Shown: positions 4,444-22,832 of the stretch, one piece after another
Layout: each line of letters opens with the position of its first letter
Numbering within the stretch: position 1 is the first letter of the stretch
Source of the DNA: Thermodesulfovibrio sp. 3907-1M
GTDB taxonomy: Bacteria > Nitrospirota > Thermodesulfovibrionia > Thermodesulfovibrionales > Thermodesulfovibrionaceae
DNA length: 64,000 nt
Assembly: GCF_040450955.1 (NCBI RefSeq)
Contig: NZ_CP144373.1
Span: 1 to 64,000 of the forward strand
Direction of reading: 5' to 3'
Program-made: the position numbers and the translations under genes
Notes under the pieces: generated by a model
What the model was told of the DNA's origin: nothing
The model's input: the letters and a program-made list of their open reading frames with translations, nothing else
Databases searched by the model: none

Positions 4444-7400
4444 ATGATAAAGCCTTTAAGAGAGAGAATAAACTTCGGAAAGGTACCTCCACTTGTGGAG
4501 GTGCCTTATCTTTTAGAGTTTCAGAAAAAATCTTTTGAGAAGTTTCTTCAGAAAGATGTTCCACCTGAAGAAAGAGTTGATGAGGGACTTCAGTCAGCCT
4601 TAAACAGTGTTTTTCCAATAAGTGATTACAATGGTACAACCACAATAGAGTTTATTTCCTACTCAGTTGGAGAACCAAAGCTGAGCCCATATGAATGCAT
4701 GGTTAAGGGATTAACTTATTCAGTTCCTATAAAAATGAAGGTTCGTTTAAATATATGGGATAAGGATGAAGAAGGAAGAAAGTTTCTTAAAGAATCAAGA
4801 GAGCAGGAAGTTTTTCTTGGCGACCTTCCAATGATGACAGAGACCGGTAGCTTTATAATAAACGGAGTTGAGAGAGTCATTGTCAGCCAGCTACACAGGT
4901 CTCCTGGCGTTTATTTTGCGCCAGATAGAAGTAAAAGCAGAATAAGCGGAAGATTTCTTTACTCTGCAAGAATTATTCCTGTAAGAGGTTCCTGGCTTGA
5001 TTTTGAGTTTGATTCAAAGGATCTTCTTTATGTGAGAATTGACAAGAGAAAAAAATTACCAGCCACAATTGTTCTTAAAGCACTGGGATATACAAACGAA
5101 GATCTGTTGAAAATCTTTTATCCAATAGAGGAAATAAGAATTAAAGACGAAAATACCTATACCAGAGTTGTAAGTGATATTTTAGTGGGGGTTAGAACAA
5201 AAATAGATATTGTTGGTCCTGATGGCGAGATTATAGTAAAGGAAGGCAGTAAGATTACAAGGTATGCACTGAAGAAAATTAAAGAAGCAGGAATTCAGGA
5301 AATACCAATTTCAAAAAGTGAAATCATCGGGAGAATAACTCTTTCAGATATTGTTGATCCTGAAACAGGTGAAGTCATAGTTGACAGTAATAAAGAGATT
5401 ACAGAAGAAGCTTTCCATAGAATTATAGCTGCCAGAATTCAAAAATTAGACTTGCTTTTTATAGACAATGTCAACTATCTCCCATCATTACGGGAAACAT
5501 TGCTTACTGACAGGGTTACGAGCAAAAAGGATGCTTTAAGAGAAATATACAAAAAATTAAGACCTGGAGAGCCTGCTACTGAGGAGGCAGCAGAGGAACT
5601 CTTTTATGGATTGTTTTTTGATCCAAAAAGATATGATCTTTCAGCAGTTGGAAGGCTTAAATTAAATCAAAAATTGGGACTTGACATACCCCTTGATGTA
5701 AGAGTGCTTACTGACAAAGATATTATAGAAATTGTTAAATATCTTCTCAATCTCAGAACAGGCAAAGGAGAGGTTGATGATATAGATCATCTTGGAAACA
5801 GAAGAGTAAGAGGAGTTGGTGAACTTCTTGAAAACCAGTTCCGTATAGGATTGGTTAGAATGGAAAGGGCAATCAGAGAGAAGATGACAATTACAGAGGT
5901 TGAAACAGCAATGCCTCATGATGTGATAAATACAAAACCTGTAATGGCAGCAGTTAAAGAGTTTTTCAGCACCAGTCAGCTCAGCCAATTTATGGATCAG
6001 ACAAATCCATTAAGTGAAATTACACACAAACGCAGGCTCAGTGCATTAGGACCTGGAGGACTGACCCGTGAAAGAGCAGGATTTGAAGTGAGAGACGTAC
6101 ATCCAACTCATTATGGAAGAATATGTCCTATTGAGACCCCGGAAGGACCTAACATTGGACTTATAACCTCTTTAGCCACTTATGCAAGAATAAATGAGTT
6201 TGGTTTTATAGAGTCTCCTTACAGAAAAGTGGTTAATGGAAAAGTTACAAATGAGGTTCACTATTTAAGCGCCCTTGAAAGTGAGAACTATGTTATTGCA
6301 GAGGCAACAACTCCTGTAGATAAAGATGGAAATATTATTGGAGAGACAGTTTCAGCAAGAGTTAAGGGAGACTTCAAAATGGTATCACGCGATGAAGTGG
6401 AATATATGGATGTCTCTCCAAAACAGATCGTTAGTTTGTCTGCTTCTTTAATTCCATTTCTTGAAAATGACGATGCTAACAGAGCACTCATGGGTTCTAA
6501 TATGCAAAGGCAGGCTGTTCCTTTAATTCAAACTGAAGCTCCTGTAGTTGGCACAGGAATGGAGTTGTATGCAGCAAGGGACAGTGGTTGGCTTGTTGTT
6601 GCAAAAAGGGCAGGAATAGTAGAAAATGTTGATGCTACAAGAATCGTTGTGAGAGTTACTGAAGAAGGTGGAGGAGTTGATATATACAATCTTATAAAGT
6701 TTCACAAATCCAATCAGGGAACATGCATGACTCAGAAGCCCATTGTTAAAGTGGGACAGGTTGTAGAAAGAGGAACAATCTTAGCTGATGGTCCAAGTAT
6801 GGACAGAGGTGAGCTTGCTCTTGGCAGAAATGTTCTCGTTGCATTCATGCCTTGGGGTGGATATAACTTTGAGGATGCTATACTGATCAGTGAAAGACTT
6901 GTAAAAGAAGATGTTTACACATCTATTCACATTGACGAATTTGAGATTGAATGTAGAGATACAAAGCTTGGTCCTGAAGAGATTACGAGAGAAATTCCAA
7001 ATGTGAATGAAGAGCTTCTTAAAAATCTTGATGAAGATGGAATTATAAGAATAGGTGCAAAGGTAAAAGCAGGCGATATCCTTGTTGGAAAAGTAACACC
7101 CAAAGGAGAAAGAGTCTATACACCTGAAGAAAAGCTTCTTTACGCCATATTCGGTGAAAAGGCAGAAGATGTTAAAGAAAGCTGTCTTTATGTCCCGCCA
7201 GGAATTGAAGGAGTTGTTATTGATGTAAAAATTTTAACAAGAAAGGGCAAAGAAAAGTCCAGAAGAGCCCTTGCTATAGAAGAGGAAGAGATAAATAGAA
7301 TAGAAAGAGACAGAGAAGATGAAATAAGAATTCTTAAAGAGACAAAGGCAAGTAGAATCAGAAAAATACTTCAGGGTAAAATTGTTCTTGAGGATGTCCG

Positions 7401-8367
7401 TAAAGGTGAAAAAGTCTTGTGCCCAAAGGGAAAAGCACTTACAGAGAAGGTTGTTAATCTTCTTGATGTAAATCAACTACTCAAACTGAAGGTAGAAGAC
7501 CCTGATGTTAAGGCAGAAGTAAACAGAGTTAATAAAGAAGTAGAGCAGCATATAAAGCAGATTTATGCAAAATACAATGAAAAAATTGAAAGAATCCGTA
7601 AAGGAGATGAGCTTCCTGCTGGTGTCAATCAGATAGTTAAGGTTTACATTGCCATGAAAAGAAAAATTCAGGTTGGAGACAAAATGGCAGGCAGACATGG
7701 AAATAAAGGCGTTGTCTCTATGGTTCTGCCTGAAGAGGATATGCCATATCTTGAAGATGGAACACCTGTTGATATTGTGCTTAACCCCTTAGGAGTTCCT
7801 TCCAGAATGAATGTAGGACAGATTCTTGAAACTCATTTAGGATTGGCTGCCAAGGCCCTGGGTCTTTATGTGGCAAGTCCTGTTTTTGAAGGTGCGAAAG
7901 AAGATGAGATAAAAGAGATGCTTAAGAAAGCCGGCTTTCCAGCAACGGGTCAGGTAACTCTTTATGATGGAAGAACAGGCGAACCTTTTGAAAGGCCTGT
8001 TACAGTTGGCTATATGTATATGCTAAAACTGCATCATCTTGTGGCAGATAAAATTCATGCTCGTTCCATAGGTCCTTATTCCCTTGTAACCCAGCAACCT
8101 CTTGGAGGTAAAGCACAGTTTGGTGGGCAGAGACTTGGAGAGATGGAAGTATGGGCACTGGAAGCATATGGAGCAGCCTATACACTTCAGGAGTTTTTAA
8201 CTGTAAAAAGCGATGATATAACAGGTAGAACCCGCATGTATGAAGCTATTGTTAAAGGACATCCTGTGTTGGAGCCGGGAGTTCCTGAGTCATTTAATGT
8301 TTTAATGAAAGAACTCCAGAGTCTTTGTCTTGATGTTGATCTTCTGGAGAAAAAGAAAAAAACTTAA
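4444..8367 (+). CDS. rpoB: RNA polymerase beta subunit
   Basis: This 1307-residue RpoB is intact. The catalytic-core motif [15 protein letters not shown] lies at about residue 1079, and the rifampicin-region signature [23 protein letters not shown] at about 519-541. The C-terminus has [15 protein letters not shown] and the [24 protein letters not shown] block. The family's variable inserts are short, which explains the length. AAGAAGGAGAACC precedes the ATG. rpoC starts 39 nt after the stop, so transcription continues. Confidence 0.98.
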
Positions 8368-12522: not shown

Positions 12523-12991
12523 TTTACCTCGTTTTATAGCAGATGTAATGCTCGGAAGCCTGAGCCGCTGGCTCAGGCTTTTTGGTTTTGATACATTGTA
12601 CAGGAATGATTTTACAGACAAGCAGCTTATAAAGCTCTCTTTGCAGGAAGACAGAGTGCTTTTGACCAGAGATAATGCTCTTGCTAAATCAAAGTTATTA
12701 AAAAAAGTTTTACTGATCCAGTCAGAGGAAATCAGAGAGCAGATTAAAGAGGTTTTGCTGTCCTTTTATCCGAAATTAGAACTTTTAAATCTCAAACCAA
12801 GATGTCCCGTTTGCAATGGAGAGACTGAGAGAATTAAAAAAGAAGAAATTAAAGGACAACTACCTGATTATGTTTTGTTTTCCAGTCATGAATTTATCAT
12901 GTGCAAATCCTGTGGTAAGATTTACTGGGAGGGAACACATAAGGAGAAAATTGATGAAGTGAAAAAAGATATTTTACAAAGCCTAAAATAA
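12497..12991 (+). CDS. Mut7-C family protein (PIN-like RNase domain plus zinc ribbon)
   Basis: This is a 164-residue protein of the Mut7-C type. The N-terminal half has the PIN-like pattern [22 protein letters not shown]...DRVLLTRD, with the acidic residues D16, D52 and D59. The C-terminal half is a zinc ribbon with C103/C106 and C136/C139. The family is predicted to be an RNase; this is from family resemblance only. The GTG at 12497 lies inside the end of rpoC; a TTG at 12509 is an alternative. The 3' end overlaps the convergent polB by 9 nt. Confidence 0.82.
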
Positions 12992-15334
12992 CTTATTTTC
13001 TTTTTTAAAAACCTTCAAAATTCGCATTGCTGTAGGTAAAACCTGATTTTCAATGTAATAATCAATATCAATTTTTGATGGATCTGCAAGCTCTACTGGA
13101 TAGGCTCTTTCACTTATTGAGCCAGAACCTTTCTGAATTATATATCCTATTACGCTTCCTTCACCCACTGGAATGTCTTTTTCAAGCAACCTCTTAGCAG
13201 CTACTACATGAGGAGATATTAATTTATACTCTGACACAGGCTTTGAAAGCTGCTCGTAAACAACCAGCTCTTTTAAATCATAATTGCCTTCCCGTAAAGC
13301 TTTAACTCTTTCATCAAGGTATTTAAAGGCTTTTGGAATATCTTCCTCAATGAGGCATATTTTAAGAATCTCCTGCTGGGTAGCTCTTGCAAACTTACAG
13401 AGGTCTCTTCTTACTACTTCAAGCCCTCTTATTTTCAGCTTTCCCTTTTCATCAACTAAAGCATATCTTTTCTTTGCCACACCTCCGGCTTCTCTTGAAA
13501 CAAAAAGCCCCTTAACATAGAAATCTTCAAGGTCAAGCCTCATAAGTCCTGGAAGACTTTGATTTATTTCTTTGATAAACTCTTCAACTTTTTCTTTATT
13601 GTCAATTTTCAAAAATGCTGAATCCGTATCTCCATATATAGCATGAAATCCTTTCTCAGAAGCTTTTTTTAAGACTTCTTTAATCCAGTATCTTCCAAGA
13701 GCTGTAATTGCCTCGGCACATTCTTTTGAATACCATCTGCTTGCAGGATAGGCATAATAACCATATGAGGCATTTATGATTGTTTTCAGTGCTCTCTGTT
13801 TTGTATCAAGCTCTAAGTATTCATGAGACTCTGGGTTAAGTTTTTTTAATTGTTTTTTTAGTTCAAGCCTTTCAATTAAAAGTTCTTCAACTGCCTGAGA
13901 TTCAAAGCCTTTTTTATTTTTACAGAACCAGTAAGGAAAATCAGGAATTTTGTATCCATTGTCTTTACAGCAACTACAGTTAAGAGTATCAATTGATATG
14001 TTGTATGTTGCAATTATTGATGGATAAAGAGAAGCAAAGTCAACAACAGCAATTCCTTTATGAAGCCCTACTTCTGGTTCTTTTACAAATCCTCCCTCAT
14101 ATGTTGTTTTCTGACGCTCCTTTATTTCATCAAATTTTGGCTGATTTGGAATCACTCTGTTTTGTTGTTTTGCCTTTTTAATGTAATACCATTCTACAAG
14201 CTGGCTATAGGGCATTCTTGATGTGTCAAAAAGAGACTGTCCCGTGATTCTTGTCAGTTCCTCAATATCAGGTAAAAGCATTTTTGTAAGTTCATAAACA
14301 AGTTCACTATCTTTTAAGCAGTATCTTGCAAGTTTGTCAAGCTCATGCCCTTTATCCCATGCCTGCAGGATATCTTCATACTCCATATCAAGCTTTGTAT
14401 CACCAAGAAGCTCCTGCGCGACATTTTTTAAGGTAAGCTGCTCACTCTGAAGCATTGCAGAGAGAATATTAAAGACAAAATTAAATATGTCAATATGAAC
14501 TCTTCCAATAAGTCTTGCAGTTGTAAATCGTGCTCTTTTTGAAAGAGTTATTCCAGAGTTATCCCTTGAAAGAATACTAATGTCCACCTTAAGTTGTCTT
14601 GCCCTTTCTCTCAGTATTGGCATGTCATACAAATCTGTATTGTATCCAACAATTATATCAGGATCATAATCCTTTACAATTTCAATAAAGTTTTTTATAA
14701 GTTCCTTTTCATCTTTAACAACCGTTGTCTCCACAGTGTATTTTGCTTCCTGATATGTAATTACCTTTGATAAACCTTCTCCGAATACGGAAATCATCAC
14801 AATAGATGGAGTTCCTCTTTGCACTTCAAGAACTTCCATATCAAAAGCAAGAATTTTAAGTTTTGGTGAAGCTGCAGCAGCTTTTTTAATTGATTTAACC
14901 TGATTGCCATGAGTTTCAATTTCAAGCCATTGTAGGCAGGACAATTGTCTTTCAGCAAGATATGTTCTATATGGTGACAGCTGATATTCAAACTCATCAA
15001 CTATGGAACCTGAGCCACCTCTTTTTGCTTCAAGAACTTTTATTGCATCCCTTACCTTTTGTAAATCCTGATGCCTTTTTGTGTAAATTTTTATAAACTC
15101 CTTTTGCTGACCATAAAAGATTTTTTTCTCCTCAGTCATTTCAGTAACTGCAAGAGAATTCTCCTTAATGATTTTTTCAATTTCTTCAATAGCCTTATTT
15201 TTATCTGCGGGAAGCACTAAAAAATAAGGACGATATGATGAATCAATAAGTTTTTGTCTTTTCCCATCCTCTGTTATTCCAAAGAGAAGAATGCCATCAG
15301 AAGAATCGTCTATGTCTATAAGATAAAGTAGCAT
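12983..15334 (-). CDS. polB: Family-B DNA polymerase with proofreading exonuclease
   Basis: This is a 783-residue single-chain family-B polymerase (Pol II/archaeal PolB type). Exonuclease motifs are intact: FDME with D165/E167, GYNTDLYD at 230-237 and YCLKD at 338-342. The polymerase motifs are DFASLYPSI (432-440), KTIINASYGY (517-526) and YGDTDS (567-572). All catalytic carboxylates are present, so both activities are expected. The role is probably repair or translesion synthesis, as for bacterial Pol II; that part is inferred. A TATAAT box 7 nt before the ATG and no Shine-Dalgarno suggest a leaderless message. Confidence 0.95.
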   Translation of the reverse strand: MLLYLIDIDDSSDGILLFGITEDGKRQKLIDSSYRPYFLVLPADKNKAIEEIEKIIKENSLAVTEMTEEKKIFYGQQKEFIKIYTKRHQDLQKVRDAIKVLEAKRGGSGSIVDEFEYQLSPYRTYLAERQLSCLQWLEIETHGNQVKSIKKAAAASPKLKILAFDMEVLEVQRGTPSIVMISVFGEGLSKVITYQEAKYTVETTVVKDEKELIKNFIEIVKDYDPDIIVGYNTDLYDMPILRERARQLKVDISILSRDNSGITLSKRARFTTARLIGRVHIDIFNFVFNILSAMLQSEQLTLKNVAQELLGDTKLDMEYEDILQAWDKGHELDKLARYCLKDSELVYELTKMLLPDIEELTRITGQSLFDTSRMPYSQLVEWYYIKKAKQQNRVIPNQPKFDEIKERQKTTYEGGFVKEPEVGLHKGIAVVDFASLYPSIIATYNISIDTLNCSCCKDNGYKIPDFPYWFCKNKKGFESQAVEELLIERLELKKQLKKLNPESHEYLELDTKQRALKTIINASYGYYAYPASRWYSKECAEAITALGRYWIKEVLKKASEKGFHAIYGDTDSAFLKIDNKEKVEEFIKEINQSLPGLMRLDLEDFYVKGLFVSREAGGVAKKRYALVDEKGKLKIRGLEVVRRDLCKFARATQQEILKICLIEEDIPKAFKYLDERVKALREGNYDLKELVVYEQLSKPVSEYKLISPHVVAAKRLLEKDIPVGEGSVIGYIIQKGSGSISERAYPVELADPSKIDIDYYIENQVLPTAMRILKVFKKENKLF

Positions 15335-18127: not shown

Positions 18128-18565
18128 ATGAAAAATTTAATCATTCTTATTTTAATCTTGAGTTTTCCCACCAATGTATTTTCTGAGTATGTGGGAACAG
18201 AAGTTTGTAAAAAGTGCCATATCAAGCAATACGAAAATTTTATTAAGTATTCAAGAATGTCTCGTTCCTTTGATGCATTAGAGAAAATGAAGAACAAACT
18301 TACCCAGGAAGAGCTGAAAGGCTGTTTTCAATGTCATACAACAGGGTATGGTAAAAAAGGAGGGTTTGTTTCAGTAGAAAAAACACCATACCTTAAAAAT
18401 ACAGGCTGTGAAGTCTGCCACGGTCCTGGCAAAAAACACGCAGAGACAAAAGATCCTAAATTTATTAAGAAAAAGCTTAATCTTCAGATCTGTGAATCCT
18501 GTCATACTGAGGAAAGAGTTAGAGCTTTTAGATTTAAACCTCTTCTTTATGGAGGAGCTCACTGA
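18128..18565 (+). CDS. Exported tetrahaem c-type cytochrome
   Basis: This 145-residue protein has a hydrophobic signal peptide (about 1-19, cut near FSE). It carries four CxxCH haem sites at residues 27-31, 66-70, 94-98 and 122-126 (CKKCH, CFQCH, CEVCH, CESCH). Haem spacing resembles cytochrome c554-like proteins. It should work in the periplasm as an electron carrier. Its stop overlaps the ATG of the hybrid kinase (TGATG), implying strict co-expression. I infer that it feeds, or is sensed with, the haem-containing kinase. No enzymatic domain is visible. Confidence 0.88.
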   Translation: MKNLIILILILSFPTNVFSEYVGTEVCKKCHIKQYENFIKYSRMSRSFDALEKMKNKLTQEELKGCFQCHTTGYGKKGGFVSVEKTPYLKNTGCEVCHGPGKKHAETKDPKFIKKKLNLQICESCHTEERVRAFRFKPLLYGGAH

Positions 18566-21237
18566 TGTTTGAGTTTATAACCAGAAAAATTGGAAATAAG
18601 TTATTGGTTACCTTTGTAGGTATATTATTTTTAGTCATGCTGATAGAGATAAGTTTCAGAATTTATTTTGGATTGCCAGACAGGCTTAAAATAGCAGAAG
18701 CAGGCAGTAAAGAAGTAATGGATACGATTTTTGCCACCATAAAGCATCCTCTTACAGTTGGAGACAGTGAAACAATTCACAGAGACCTTGAAGAAATTGG
18801 AAATAAATACGAAAAAATAGATGTTTATTTATGTGACTTTAATAAACTGATTTCTTTTTCAACTGATAAAAAGAGCATCAATAAGAAAATTGACTATGTG
18901 ATTGATAACGAAGATTTTTCTAAAACAATTAATAAATCTTTTACGGAAGAGCAAAATGAGGCTGTTTTTTCAAAGGTTTTTAAAGTTCAGGGTAAAAGAA
19001 GTTTAATCTCTATTTTTCCAATAAAAAACTCACCAGAATGCTTTCACTGTCATGGTTCATCAAGAAAAATTCTGGGTGCCATGATAATGAAAACAGATGT
19101 AGAAGATGTATATAGAACTGTTATATACCAGATGAGAAGATCATTAATTCTTACAATATTTGCCTTTGTTTTTGCTGCAATTATTGTTAACTTATTTGTG
19201 AAGAAGTTGATTAAAAATCCTCTTAATAGTTTAGTTGAGGCAACTCACAAGTTTGCAAAAGGTGAGATGGTTAACATAACAGGCTATCCAAAGGATGAGA
19301 TAGGCAGTTTGTGCGAAACATTTAATTACATGGTTAATGAAGTGGCAAAATCAAAGATGGAACTTGAAAAGGAACTTACACGGAGGGCAAAACTTCTTGA
19401 AGAAAGAGATGAACTTGTAGCATTGCTTCAGAAAGCAAATAAACAATTAAAGGAGCTTGATACTCTTAAATCTGCTTTTATAGCCAATATGTCTCATGAG
19501 CTAAGAACACCAATGAATGCAATAATTGGATATACAGATTTACTGCTTGATGAAGTTGATGGTCCATTGAATGAAGACCAGAAAGCTTCATTGAAAAAAG
19601 TGGCTGCGAATGCAAGACATTTATTGCAGTTGATAAACGATGTTCTTGATATTTCAAAAATTGAATCGGGAAAGATTGAGTTGAGACCTAATGAGGTTGA
19701 CCTGAAAGCATTAATTGATAGCATCATGGTTACTTTTGAACCATTGATCGCCAAAAAAGGATTAAACTTTCACATGCATATAGAAAAAGGAGCGGAAAAA
19801 CTCTATGTTGATGAGGATAAAACTAAACAGATTCTTATAAATTTAATATCCAATGCTGTAAAATTCACGCATCAGGGTGTAATAACACTAAGAGCAAGAA
19901 TTTCAGAAAGAGGACTGGATAAAGAGGGAAATCCACAGTTTGTTGAGATTTCTGTGGCTGACACTGGAATTGGAATTAAAAAAGAAGACCTTGACAAAAT
20001 CTTTGATAAATTCGCTCAGGCTGATGTATCCACCACGAGACAGTATGAGGGAACAGGTCTTGGTCTGAGCATTGTAAGAGGACTTGTAGCACTCCATAAA
20101 GGGATGGTCTGGGCTGAAAGCGAAGTTGGAAGGGGAAGCACTTTTTATGTTCTTTTGCCTTTTAAAAAGGAAGTTTTTGATGCACCTGGTCCTGTTATTG
20201 AAGAGAGAATGGCTGAAGCCCTGGCTCAGTATTTTGAAGTTCCAAAGGAGGTTTTTCTTGAGGAGCCCTCTTATGAAGGTAAATCTGTAAGATGCTGGGA
20301 CTATACTCAGTGTGGGCATGTTAACTGCCCTGAATACGGTTGTCCTGAAAAGCGATGCTGGCTTGTTCTTGGGACTCATTGTAAAGGTATGAAAATAGCC
20401 TCATGGCCAGAAAAAGTTGAAGCCTGCAGAATCTGTGAGGTTGTTCGTGACCTTGTTTTACATAAAGAGCCAGTAATGGTAGAGCTCAAACCATCGGAAA
20501 AAGAAAAAGTTGTAGTTGCCATTGATGACAACCCTGATGCAATTGATTTAATCAGAAAATATCTTGAAAAGGACTACAAAGTTATAGGACTTCTCAGCAG
20601 TGAGGAGGCAGTTAATCAGGTTAAAGAGATTAAACCAGTTGCAATAACTCTTGATATAATGATGCCAAAGAAAGATGGCTGGCAGGTTTTAAAGGAACTG
20701 AAAGAGGATGAAGAAACAAGGGATATACCAGTAATTATTGTTTCAATAATAGACAATAAAACCTTGGCATTCAGTCTTGGAGCAGCAGACTATTTTGTAA
20801 AACCTCTTGACGGGCATTCTTTGCTTAGAAAGATAAAATCCATTGAGACATATTGTCCAGTTAAAAAAGTTTTTGTCCTTGAAAGAGACGAAAAAACTTC
20901 AAAAGATTTGATTAGTATTCTAAAAGAAACAGGCTATGATGTTACAGCTACAAGAGACAGCAAAGAAGCAATAAATCTTGTTAAACTCCAGAAACCAGAC
21001 CTTTTGATAATTAATATCACAGATCCAGACAGCAGTGCCTTTGATTTTCTTGATTTTATAAAGGGGTCTTCTGAATTAAAGGAAGTCCCAATCATTGCTC
21101 TTACAAATAAAGAATTAACAGAGGAAGAAAAAGAAGCTCTCAATGGTAGAATAAAAGAAATAATAAACAAGGCTCTCTTTTCAGAAGAACAACTCATAAA
21201 AGAACTGAAGAGTAGTTTAAAGAAAATAGGAGGTTAA
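18565..21237 (+). CDS. Haem-binding hybrid sensor histidine kinase
   Basis: This is an 890-residue hybrid kinase. Membrane helix 1 spans about 13-33. A periplasmic DUF3365/Tll0287-like sensor (34-190) carries one c-haem site, CFHCH, at 159-163. Membrane helix 2 (about 193-212), HAMP (212-265) and a coiled coil follow. HisKA has phospho-acceptor H311 in MSHELRTP. The ATPase domain has N430, DTGIG and GTGLGLSIV. A cysteine-rich cassette with eight Cys (577-624) follows, then REC1 with D697/K746, and REC2 (about 767-885), which lacks the usual acidic pocket. Likely input is haem redox or ligand state. It is cotranscribed with the cytochrome and two downstream receivers. Confidence 0.93.
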   Translation: MFEFITRKIGNKLLVTFVGILFLVMLIEISFRIYFGLPDRLKIAEAGSKEVMDTIFATIKHPLTVGDSETIHRDLEEIGNKYEKIDVYLCDFNKLISFSTDKKSINKKIDYVIDNEDFSKTINKSFTEEQNEAVFSKVFKVQGKRSLISIFPIKNSPECFHCHGSSRKILGAMIMKTDVEDVYRTVIYQMRRSLILTIFAFVFAAIIVNLFVKKLIKNPLNSLVEATHKFAKGEMVNITGYPKDEIGSLCETFNYMVNEVAKSKMELEKELTRRAKLLEERDELVALLQKANKQLKELDTLKSAFIANMSHELRTPMNAIIGYTDLLLDEVDGPLNEDQKASLKKVAANARHLLQLINDVLDISKIESGKIELRPNEVDLKALIDSIMVTFEPLIAKKGLNFHMHIEKGAEKLYVDEDKTKQILINLISNAVKFTHQGVITLRARISERGLDKEGNPQFVEISVADTGIGIKKEDLDKIFDKFAQADVSTTRQYEGTGLGLSIVRGLVALHKGMVWAESEVGRGSTFYVLLPFKKEVFDAPGPVIEERMAEALAQYFEVPKEVFLEEPSYEGKSVRCWDYTQCGHVNCPEYGCPEKRCWLVLGTHCKGMKIASWPEKVEACRICEVVRDLVLHKEPVMVELKPSEKEKVVVAIDDNPDAIDLIRKYLEKDYKVIGLLSSEEAVNQVKEIKPVAITLDIMMPKKDGWQVLKELKEDEETRDIPVIIVSIIDNKTLAFSLGAADYFVKPLDGHSLLRKIKSIETYCPVKKVFVLERDEKTSKDLISILKETGYDVTATRDSKEAINLVKLQKPDLLIINITDPDSSAFDFLDFIKGSSELKEVPIIALTNKELTEEEKEALNGRIKEIINKALFSEEQLIKELKSSLKKIGG

Positions 21238-21239
21238 AT

Positions 21240-21608
21240 GTGAACACAATTCTTGTTGTTGACGATAATGAAGATTCAAGAGAGCTTGTAAAAAAGATTT
21301 TGAAAAAACAAGGCTTTGAGATAATTGAGGCAGTAGATGGTGAAGATGCTTTAGCCAAGGCTATAGCATACAGACCTGACCTTATACTTATGGACATATC
21401 AATTCCAAAGATAGATGGTTACGAAGTAACAAGAAGGCTAAAATCAAGAATTGATTTTAAAGACACTCCGATAATAGCTTTTACTGCTCATGCAATGAGA
21501 GGCGATCAGGAAAAAGCACTGGAGGCTGGATGTGATGGCTATATTTCAAAACCCATTAATGTGAGAGAGTTTCCAGAGCAAATAAAGATGTACTTGAAGG
21601 GAAAATGA
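21240..21608 (+). CDS. Single-domain response regulator (receiver only), GTG start
   Basis: This is a 122-residue CheY-like receiver. It has the acidic pair DD (8-9), phospho-acceptor D52 in MDISIPKIDG, T/A switch residues in IAFTAHAM and K near ISKPIN. There is no output domain, so it probably relays phosphate or acts by binding a partner. The start is GTG at 21240, with AGGAGG about 6 nt upstream; the ATG one base earlier runs straight into a stop. It lies 2 nt after the hybrid kinase and overlaps the next gene. Confidence 0.92.
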   Translation: MNTILVVDDNEDSRELVKKILKKQGFEIIEAVDGEDALAKAIAYRPDLILMDISIPKIDGYEVTRRLKSRIDFKDTPIIAFTAHAMRGDQEKALEAGCDGYISKPINVREFPEQIKMYLKGK

Positions 21609-22675
21609 ACAACCAGAAGCGAACTATTTTAATTGTTGATGACAATATAGATACAGTGGAACTTTTAAGAAAGAGATTAAGGGCAGAAGGTTACAATACA
21701 GAAGAAGCCTATGATGGTGAAGAAGCTTTAAAAAAGGTATACGAAAGCTCCCCGGATTTAATAGTTCTTGATGTTATGATGCCAAAGATGGATGGATATG
21801 AGGTTTGTGAGAGACTTAAAACTGATGAAAGAACCAGGTTTATTCCAGTGATTATGCTTACAGCGAAAACTGATGTGGAAAGCAAAGTTAAAGGATTTGA
21901 TATTGGTGCAGATGATTATGTTCCTAAACCATTTGATTACAGAGAACTATCAGCAAGAATCCGTTCTTTACTTGCCAGGAAAGAGACTTCTGAAAAAGCT
22001 ATTGAAGAAAAAAGAACAGAAGCAGTAAGAAAACTTATTGACAGTCTTTCTCATGAAATAAGAAATCCTATTGTAAGCATCGCAGGATTTGCCAAAAAAG
22101 TATATGATAGTCTTCCTCCAGGTGATCCAAATAAACCCTATCTGATGACCATACTTCAGGAGTCAGAAAGACTGGAAAGACTTTTAAAAGAAATCCTGAA
22201 TCTTAAGATGATAGCAATTGGCTTTATGGAAAATGTTGATCCAAAAGTTGCCACAGAAGAGGTTTTAGGTGAACTTGGCAGAGAAATAGAAGACAAAGCG
22301 ATTGAAGTGGAAACAGATTTCAGGGATGTATCAAATGTTTATATAGATAAAGAACATTTAAAGATTGTTCTCCGCAATATAATAAAGAATGCTATAGAAG
22401 CAATGGAAAAATCAGAAAAGCGACTATTAAGGATTTCACTTGAACAGGCTGGAAATGAGATATTAATAAAGATTTCTGATACAGGTAAAGGAATCCCTAA
22501 GGAGTTGATCAAGAGGATTTTTGACCCTTTTTTCACATCAAAAATATACGGTCCTGGTCTTGGACTCACAGTGGCTCTTACAATTATTCAGTATTACAGA
22601 GGTTTTATTTCAGTTGAAAGCGAACCAGGTGTAGGCAGCACATTTATAATAAGAATACCTGTTAAAGGGGAGTAA
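21605..22675 (+). CDS. Receiver-histidine kinase fusion
   Basis: This 356-residue soluble protein has an N-terminal receiver (DD 12-13, D56 in LDVMMPKMDG, K108) fused to a histidine kinase. The kinase has H150 in SLSHEIRNP and an ATPase domain with NIIKNAIEAM, DTGKGIP and GPGLGLTVA. It lacks membrane helices, so it must be driven through its receiver, probably by the upstream kinase or the receiver-only protein. It overlaps its neighbour by 4 nt (ATGA). No DNA-binding output is encoded in this operon. A terminator follows. Confidence 0.93.
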   Translation: MNNQKRTILIVDDNIDTVELLRKRLRAEGYNTEEAYDGEEALKKVYESSPDLIVLDVMMPKMDGYEVCERLKTDERTRFIPVIMLTAKTDVESKVKGFDIGADDYVPKPFDYRELSARIRSLLARKETSEKAIEEKRTEAVRKLIDSLSHEIRNPIVSIAGFAKKVYDSLPPGDPNKPYLMTILQESERLERLLKEILNLKMIAIGFMENVDPKVATEEVLGELGREIEDKAIEVETDFRDVSNVYIDKEHLKIVLRNIIKNAIEAMEKSEKRLLRISLEQAGNEILIKISDTGKGIPKELIKRIFDPFFTSKIYGPGLGLTVALTIIQYYRGFISVESEPGVGSTFIIRIPVKGE

Positions 22676-22690
22676 GGTTACTCAAAAAAT

Positions 22691-22730
22691 TTGCAAATTC
22701 TTAAAAAATCAAGAACTTGCAATCTTTTTT
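22691..22730 (+). terminator. Rho-independent terminator of the redox-signalling operon
   Basis: The stem TTGCAAATTCTT (22691-22702) and AAGAACTTGCAA (22711-22722) pairs at 11 of 12 positions around an 8-nt loop. It is followed by TCTTTTTT. It lies 15 nt after the stop of the receiver-kinase, so the operon 18128-22675 ends here. Confidence 0.8.
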
Positions 22731-22832
22731 GATTTGTTCCACAAAAAAATTAAAGAGAGGCTTTTCAATAAAAAATGGATATATTAGGATGATTGAATCT
22801 TTAATCGTCTTTAATTCATAATATTCAATTGT

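Follow-up and report, generated by a model that had tools for sequence, protein, structure and literature searches.

The first 64,000 nucleotides of contig NZ_CP144373.1 of Thermodesulfovibrio sp. 3907-1M (hereafter the window) come from a Thermodesulfovibrio-type host with a genome of 1.94 Mb, and contain at positions 18128-22675 a haem-linked signalling operon. Four genes lie there on the forward strand, in the order tetrahaem cytochrome, hybrid histidine kinase, lone receiver and receiver-kinase (REC-HisKA-HATPase), and the open reading frame listing gives junctions of -1, +2 and -4 nucleotides between them (Table 1). A first-pass annotation, made from the sequence of the window alone, had described a tight operon with a tetrahaem cytochrome, a periplasmic CFHCH haem site in the hybrid kinase, and phosphotransfer modules numbering five, besides a degenerate receiver. 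Closer examination bears out this description: all four genes are co-directional, the haem motifs are present as described, the catalytic residues of the five modules are intact, and the second receiver of the hybrid kinase carries N817. The terminator placed at the end of the operon is plausible but weak, consisting of an AT-rich stem of 14 bp (22691-22722) with a T run 3' of the stem and a z of -2.1. Promoter matches were no more frequent than in shuffled sequences. The operon is also present in Thermodesulfovibrio sp. N1 (locus L128).

Table 1. Features of the haem-linked operon, in window coordinates.
Feature	Position	Strand	Basis
Exported tetrahaem c554-like cytochrome, 145 amino acids (stop included)	18128..18565	+	PF13435; 13/13 in genus
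Probable signal peptide of cytochrome, residues 1-20	18128..18187	+	Predicted from hydrophobic N-terminus in all relatives
Cytochrome CxxCH haem site 1, CKKCH	18206..18220	+	Invariant
Cytochrome CxxCH haem site 2, CFQCH	18323..18337	+	Invariant
Cytochrome CxxCH haem site 3, CEVCH	18407..18421	+	Invariant
Cytochrome CxxCH haem site 4, CESCH	18491..18505	+	Invariant
Hybrid histidine kinase, 890 amino acids	18565..21237	+	Pfam; alignment of 13 genus members
Periplasmic c-haem Cache/PAS-like sensor domain, kinase residues 36-188	18670..19128	+	PF21563 E 1e-6; AlphaFold; Foldseek
Leu63 (matches distal Met60 of GSU0582) to His72	18751..18780	+	His72 invariant in genus only
Sensor haem site CFHCH, residues 159-163	19039..19053	+	C159, C162, H163 invariant
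HAMP domain of hybrid kinase	19204..19341	+	PF00672
HisKA + HATPase_c core, phospho-acceptor His311	19468..20166	+	PF00512, PF02518
Two-CW cysteine-rich domain, Cys 577, 583, 588, 598, 606, 621, 624	20293..20436	+	NF045718, below cut-off
Receiver 1 of hybrid kinase, intact, Asp697	20512..20835	+	PF00072; D697 in 52/52 with domain
Receiver 2 of hybrid kinase, degenerate, Asn817 at acceptor position	20866..21222	+	Sequence alignment
Single-domain receiver, 122 amino acids, GTG start	21240..21608	+	PF00072; D52, T82, K104 conserved
Soluble receiver-kinase REC-HisKA-HATPase, 356 amino acids	21605..22675	+	Pfam; D56, H150, N262 in 49/49
Probable terminator, AT-rich hairpin + T run	22691..22731	+	Weak

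The single CFHCH motif of the hybrid kinase lies between two hydrophobic, presumably membrane-spanning, stretches. The domain that contains it matches the Pfam model PF21563 (Mcp40H-20_sensor) with 29.4 bits, above the cut-off of 27, and the host genome encodes one protein of this type. Sequence comparison bears this out, and the AlphaFold model of the sensor (pLDDT 90) finds GSU0935 (3b42) as its best PDB match in Foldseek (E 5e-7). Residues C159, C162 and H163 are invariant in 62/62 hybrid kinases and 69/69 sensors. The label "DUF3365-type", given to the sensor in the first-pass annotation, finds no support in Pfam, where PF11845 (DUF3365/Tll0287) reaches only 14.2 bits against a cut-off of 24.1 (E 0.06, compared to E 1e-6 for PF21563). 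It nevertheless comes close in spirit, since a 2026 preprint counts GSU0582 and GSU0935 as members of the DUF3365 family, which it calls sCache_heme (PMC12889525). A search of viral contigs with the sensor returned no relatives.

Among characterized proteins, Geobacter sulfurreducens GSU0935 and GSU0582 (PDB 3b42, 3b47; PF21563) share with the window sensor its fold, the position of the CxxCH motif, two transmembrane helices and a HAMP domain. However, they are methyl-accepting chemotaxis proteins (MCPs), whereas the sensor in the window leads into a kinase phosphorelay, and no cytochrome partner is described for them in the literature examined. The sCache_heme/DUF3365 sensors of the PF11845 type, such as Tll0287 and the nitric oxide (NO)-binding sensor of P. 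azotoformans, resemble it in their periplasmic Cache fold, covalent c-haem and fusion to kinases and MCPs (PMC12889525), but differ in that their Pfam model has no significant match to it. DcrA of Desulfovibrio vulgaris, described as an MCP that senses oxygen or redox through a c-haem (Fu et al., 1994, as cited in PMC3460858 and PMC8396549), likewise receives its input from a periplasmic c-haem and belongs to a sulfate reducer, again with an MCP output in place of a phosphorelay.

The cytochrome scores well above the cut-off of the Pfam model Cytochrome_C554 (PF13435; 69.1 bits against 20.8, E 6.6e-19). It is similar to Nitrosomonas cytochrome c554 (PDB 1bvb) in having four haems and in sequence (phmmer E 3.6e-8), but it is shorter, no more than two of its His are conserved apart from those in CxxCH motifs, and no hydroxylamine oxidation genes were seen near it. 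In the alignment of relatives these two are His104 and His145, too few to give each of the four haems a conserved distal His. The predicted fold (pLDDT 73), in which c554-like stacking and bis-His ligation of the haems were looked for, gave no PDB match.

The association of this cytochrome with the haem sensor is conserved. Within the genus, the operon was found in 13 of 16 genomes, with an identical four-gene order in all 13; the three genomes without it are 66-72% complete. The genes downstream of the operon vary within the genus, and in one genome (G004) it lies apart from rny-ymdB. Among 396 Nitrospirota genomes drawn for comparison, 33 loci had a strong match to the cytochrome (at least 179 bits), and each of these was located directly upstream of a haem-sensor protein, while in a by-eye comparison of the tables no c554-like match of at most 94 bits adjoined a sensor among the matches listed. 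We also scanned named genomes with the cytochrome alignment and used the best 80 of 218 relatives, which come from Nitrospirota and Desulfobacterota. These loci overlap with genomes of the 396-genome draw, and the two counts are not independent. A haem sensor was found immediately 3' of the cytochrome in 72 of the 77 assessable loci, L146, L156 and L170 ending too close to the cytochrome for the 3' neighbour to be judged; in L145, L189 and L203 the cytochrome is followed by a sensor-MCP frame. The first-pass annotation had named the loss of the cytochrome from beside the kinase in relatives as one outcome that would speak against its proposal, and the gene neighbourhoods show the opposite.

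By contrast, the signalling output behind the cytochrome-sensor pair is exchangeable: it can be a two-CW hybrid kinase with a receiver-kinase, an NtrB-like kinase or an MCP of several kinds, and in some Desulfobacterota the pair is found inside a CheA-cytochrome-MCP-CheW-CheR-CheD-CheB cluster. On the tree of cytochrome and sensor, for which L181, L185, L186, L188, L190, L191 and L202 were classed as hybrid kinases by their kinase and CW matches, there are at least five changes of output, and well-supported branches force three of these. The pairing thus tracks the sensor irrespective of the output, an argument for the cytochrome acting on the input side of the system. In the kinase form, the usual core consists of the cytochrome, the sensor, the two-CW domain and the receiver-kinase. 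Neither the attached receivers nor the lone receiver is obligatory, since L117, L119, L185 and L186 lack them. The conserved, output-independent partnership with a cytochrome is what is new about these c-haem Cache sensors, the sensors themselves being already known. The sCache_heme preprint describes cytochrome fusion only in Flavobacteria and mentions neither an operon nor a multihaem partner (PMC12889525), and our literature search, to which subscription journals were mostly inaccessible, found no description of a cytochrome partner for such sensors.

On the cytoplasmic side, residues H311, N430 and D466 of the hybrid kinase are kept in 62/62 relatives. The kinase core is separated from the receivers by a two-CW-like, cysteine-rich domain that had gone unnoticed in the first reading of the sequence; its match to NF045718 (25.3 bits, E 1.5e-5) is below the curated cut-off of 35, and at least 60 of 62 relatives share its seven Cys. 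The His and Asp sites that would act in series in a phosphorelay, H311, D697, D52, D56 and H150, are all conserved, and from these intact sites we predict phosphotransfer between the parts of the operon. The degenerate second receiver has Asn at position 817 in 47 of 51 relatives. Hybrid kinases of the BarA/TorS/ArcB type have the same HAMP-HisKA-HATPase-REC core, with NCBIfam similarity far below the equivalog cut-offs. Unlike these, the window kinase has a haem sensor and a two-CW domain and no detected HPt domain, with the lone receiver and the receiver-kinase coming after it instead. The operon had also been described as having no DNA-binding output. This is true of all operons examined, since no DNA-binding gene was seen in any of 60 two-CW operon records (some of them duplicates of one locus) using domain profiles and the reading of neighbours, short of a full Pfam scan. 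Such an absence is common among hybrid-kinase systems, and it is therefore ordinary and little informative.

The conservation of the pair in two phyla, irrespective of whether a kinase or a chemoreceptor serves as output, suggests that the cytochrome may be a carrier feeding the sensor information on electron flow outside the inner membrane. We give somewhat better than even chances to the reading in which the tetrahaem cytochrome, as a partner dedicated to the c-haem Cache sensor, sets that sensor's redox or ligand state, the two proteins forming a periplasmic input that is joined to a phosphorelay. Whether this extends to a general module, in which electron flow in the periplasm reaches a c-haem Cache receptor by way of its own tetrahaem cytochrome, and in which two phyla have coupled this input to kinases, phosphorelays and chemoreceptors, seems to us evenly balanced. 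The exported cytochrome would exchange electrons with the sensor haem, or otherwise set its redox or ligand state, and in the simplest mechanism it would equilibrate the sensor haem with the periplasmic electron pool. The state of this pool would then affect the conformation of the sensor and, via HAMP, the activity of the kinase, and phosphate could be relayed by the receivers, first the attached and then the lone one, and by the receiver-kinase to a target elsewhere in the cell. The cysteine cluster of the two-CW domain may provide a second, cytoplasmic, redox or metal input. The direction of the response, the phosphate route and the two-CW metal site are conjectural parts of this scheme.

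Several considerations weigh against the proposed role of the cytochrome. Its contact with the sensor and the electron transfer between them are what we infer from sequence comparison. Of the first-pass proposal that periplasmic electron flow is reported directly to the kinase, the functional tie between cytochrome and sensor has been strengthened by its output-independent occurrence in two phyla, whereas direct reporting stays a prediction. It speaks for a redox role that sensors with the fold and haem motif seen here, GSU0582 and GSU0935, undergo a redox-linked change of haem spin and coordination via Met60, with midpoint potentials of -156 and -251 mV (PMC8396549). In a register that rests on a low-scoring phmmer segment, the matching position is Met in 50/69 cytochrome-paired sensors, but Leu63 in all members of the window's genus, which thus lacks the distal Met ligand expected of PF21563-type sensors. 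Because of this replacement the Geobacter redox switch is not transferable unchanged, and the switch in the window's genus may use a His or an open haem site; His72 is invariant in the genus and mostly K/E/R in other relatives. Co-variation between cytochrome and sensor is also not specific: with the other modules regressed out, the distances of the two proteins correlate with a partial r of 0.35 (0/500 permutations), but the receiver-kinase reaches nearly the same value with the cytochrome (0.31), and we therefore treat this as weak evidence, not deciding. Moreover, most related haem sensors in Nitrospirota have no such cytochrome among the matches listed, and five Desulfobacterota loci (L148 at 6658-7435, L155, L175, L180 and L184) have the cytochrome and no sensor. 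In four of these five a GDT1-like divalent cation antiporter gene (identity by Pfam shown for L148) stands just upstream, and in the fifth an unnamed short gene. Finally, a HAMP-linked sCache_heme signalling protein binds NO tightly (PMC12889525).

This last point favours the main rival explanation, in which the sensor haem would be a receptor for NO, or carbon monoxide (CO), and the c554-like cytochrome would reduce, scavenge or deliver a nitrogen oxide, thereby tuning or restoring the sensor. Cytochromes of the c554-like kind could handle nitrogen oxides, at least two of the four haems here are without a conserved distal His, and the missing distal Met in the window's genus may leave the sensor haem open. 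In addition, both GSU0582 and GSU0935 bind NO and CO (PMC8396549). Against this, the loci read showed no linkage of a nitrogen-oxide gene to the pair, the hosts among the named genomes are largely sulfate reducers and their relatives, and the invariant His72 may occupy the distal site in the window's genus; we consider gas sensing unlikely. More doubtful still is that the cytochrome is merely co-transcribed, or is a regulated product of the system, with no action on the sensor. Operons often co-express output genes, and the sensor-less loci would fit such a role, but the pairing survives changes of output type, which is not expected of a target gene, and the cytochrome is always the upstream gene of the pair. 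An assembly or stability partner of the sensor haem, as opposed to a signal carrier, would likewise account for strict sensor pairing and output independence, but we consider it very improbable, given that Geobacter sensor domains with this fold have been produced as haem proteins and investigated in isolation (PMC3460858, PMC8396549), and that many related sensors in Nitrospirota have no partner among the matches listed.

If the cytochrome does set the state of the sensor haem, as we favour, the pair would show how anaerobes read periplasmic electron flow for gene control and movement alike. Either redox potential or NO has been proposed as the signal that c-haem receptors detect. The conserved tetrahaem partner is a concrete candidate electron donor for the periplasmic sensor haem, and it makes the choice between redox and NO directly testable in sulfate-reducing bacteria.

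The loci compared also contained a number of variants. A further membrane kinase is sometimes inserted in kinase-form operons; in a related family an extra kinase separates the hybrid kinase from the lone receiver (L104 at 5583-7256 on the reverse strand, L101, L102, L105, L106, L107 and L109) and has a long hydrophobic N-terminal half with no Pfam match. A second type of haem-sensor kinase, with neither cytochrome nor two-CW domain (L118, L120, L124, L125 and L126), adjoins a conserved panB-like gene, and in most loci a receiver and then a REC-kinase(-REC) protein come after it. L166 has this second type together with a cytochrome, either gained or kept. We had considered a strict rule by which the cytochrome occurs if and only if the two-CW domain does, but dropped it, since the L166 kinase and the MCP partners have the cytochrome and no CW domain. 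In L115 (6570-8384), the cytochrome is followed by a sensor-HAMP-PAS protein with no kinase, possibly a decayed copy. A gene for a CooC-like P-loop ATPase (AGKGGTGKT) is divergent upstream of the cytochrome in L099, L100, L103, L104, L107, L108, L111 and L113. Elsewhere in the window, a family B DNA polymerase gene (12983-15334, reverse strand) adjoins rny-ymdB, and it occupies the same place in several members of the genus.

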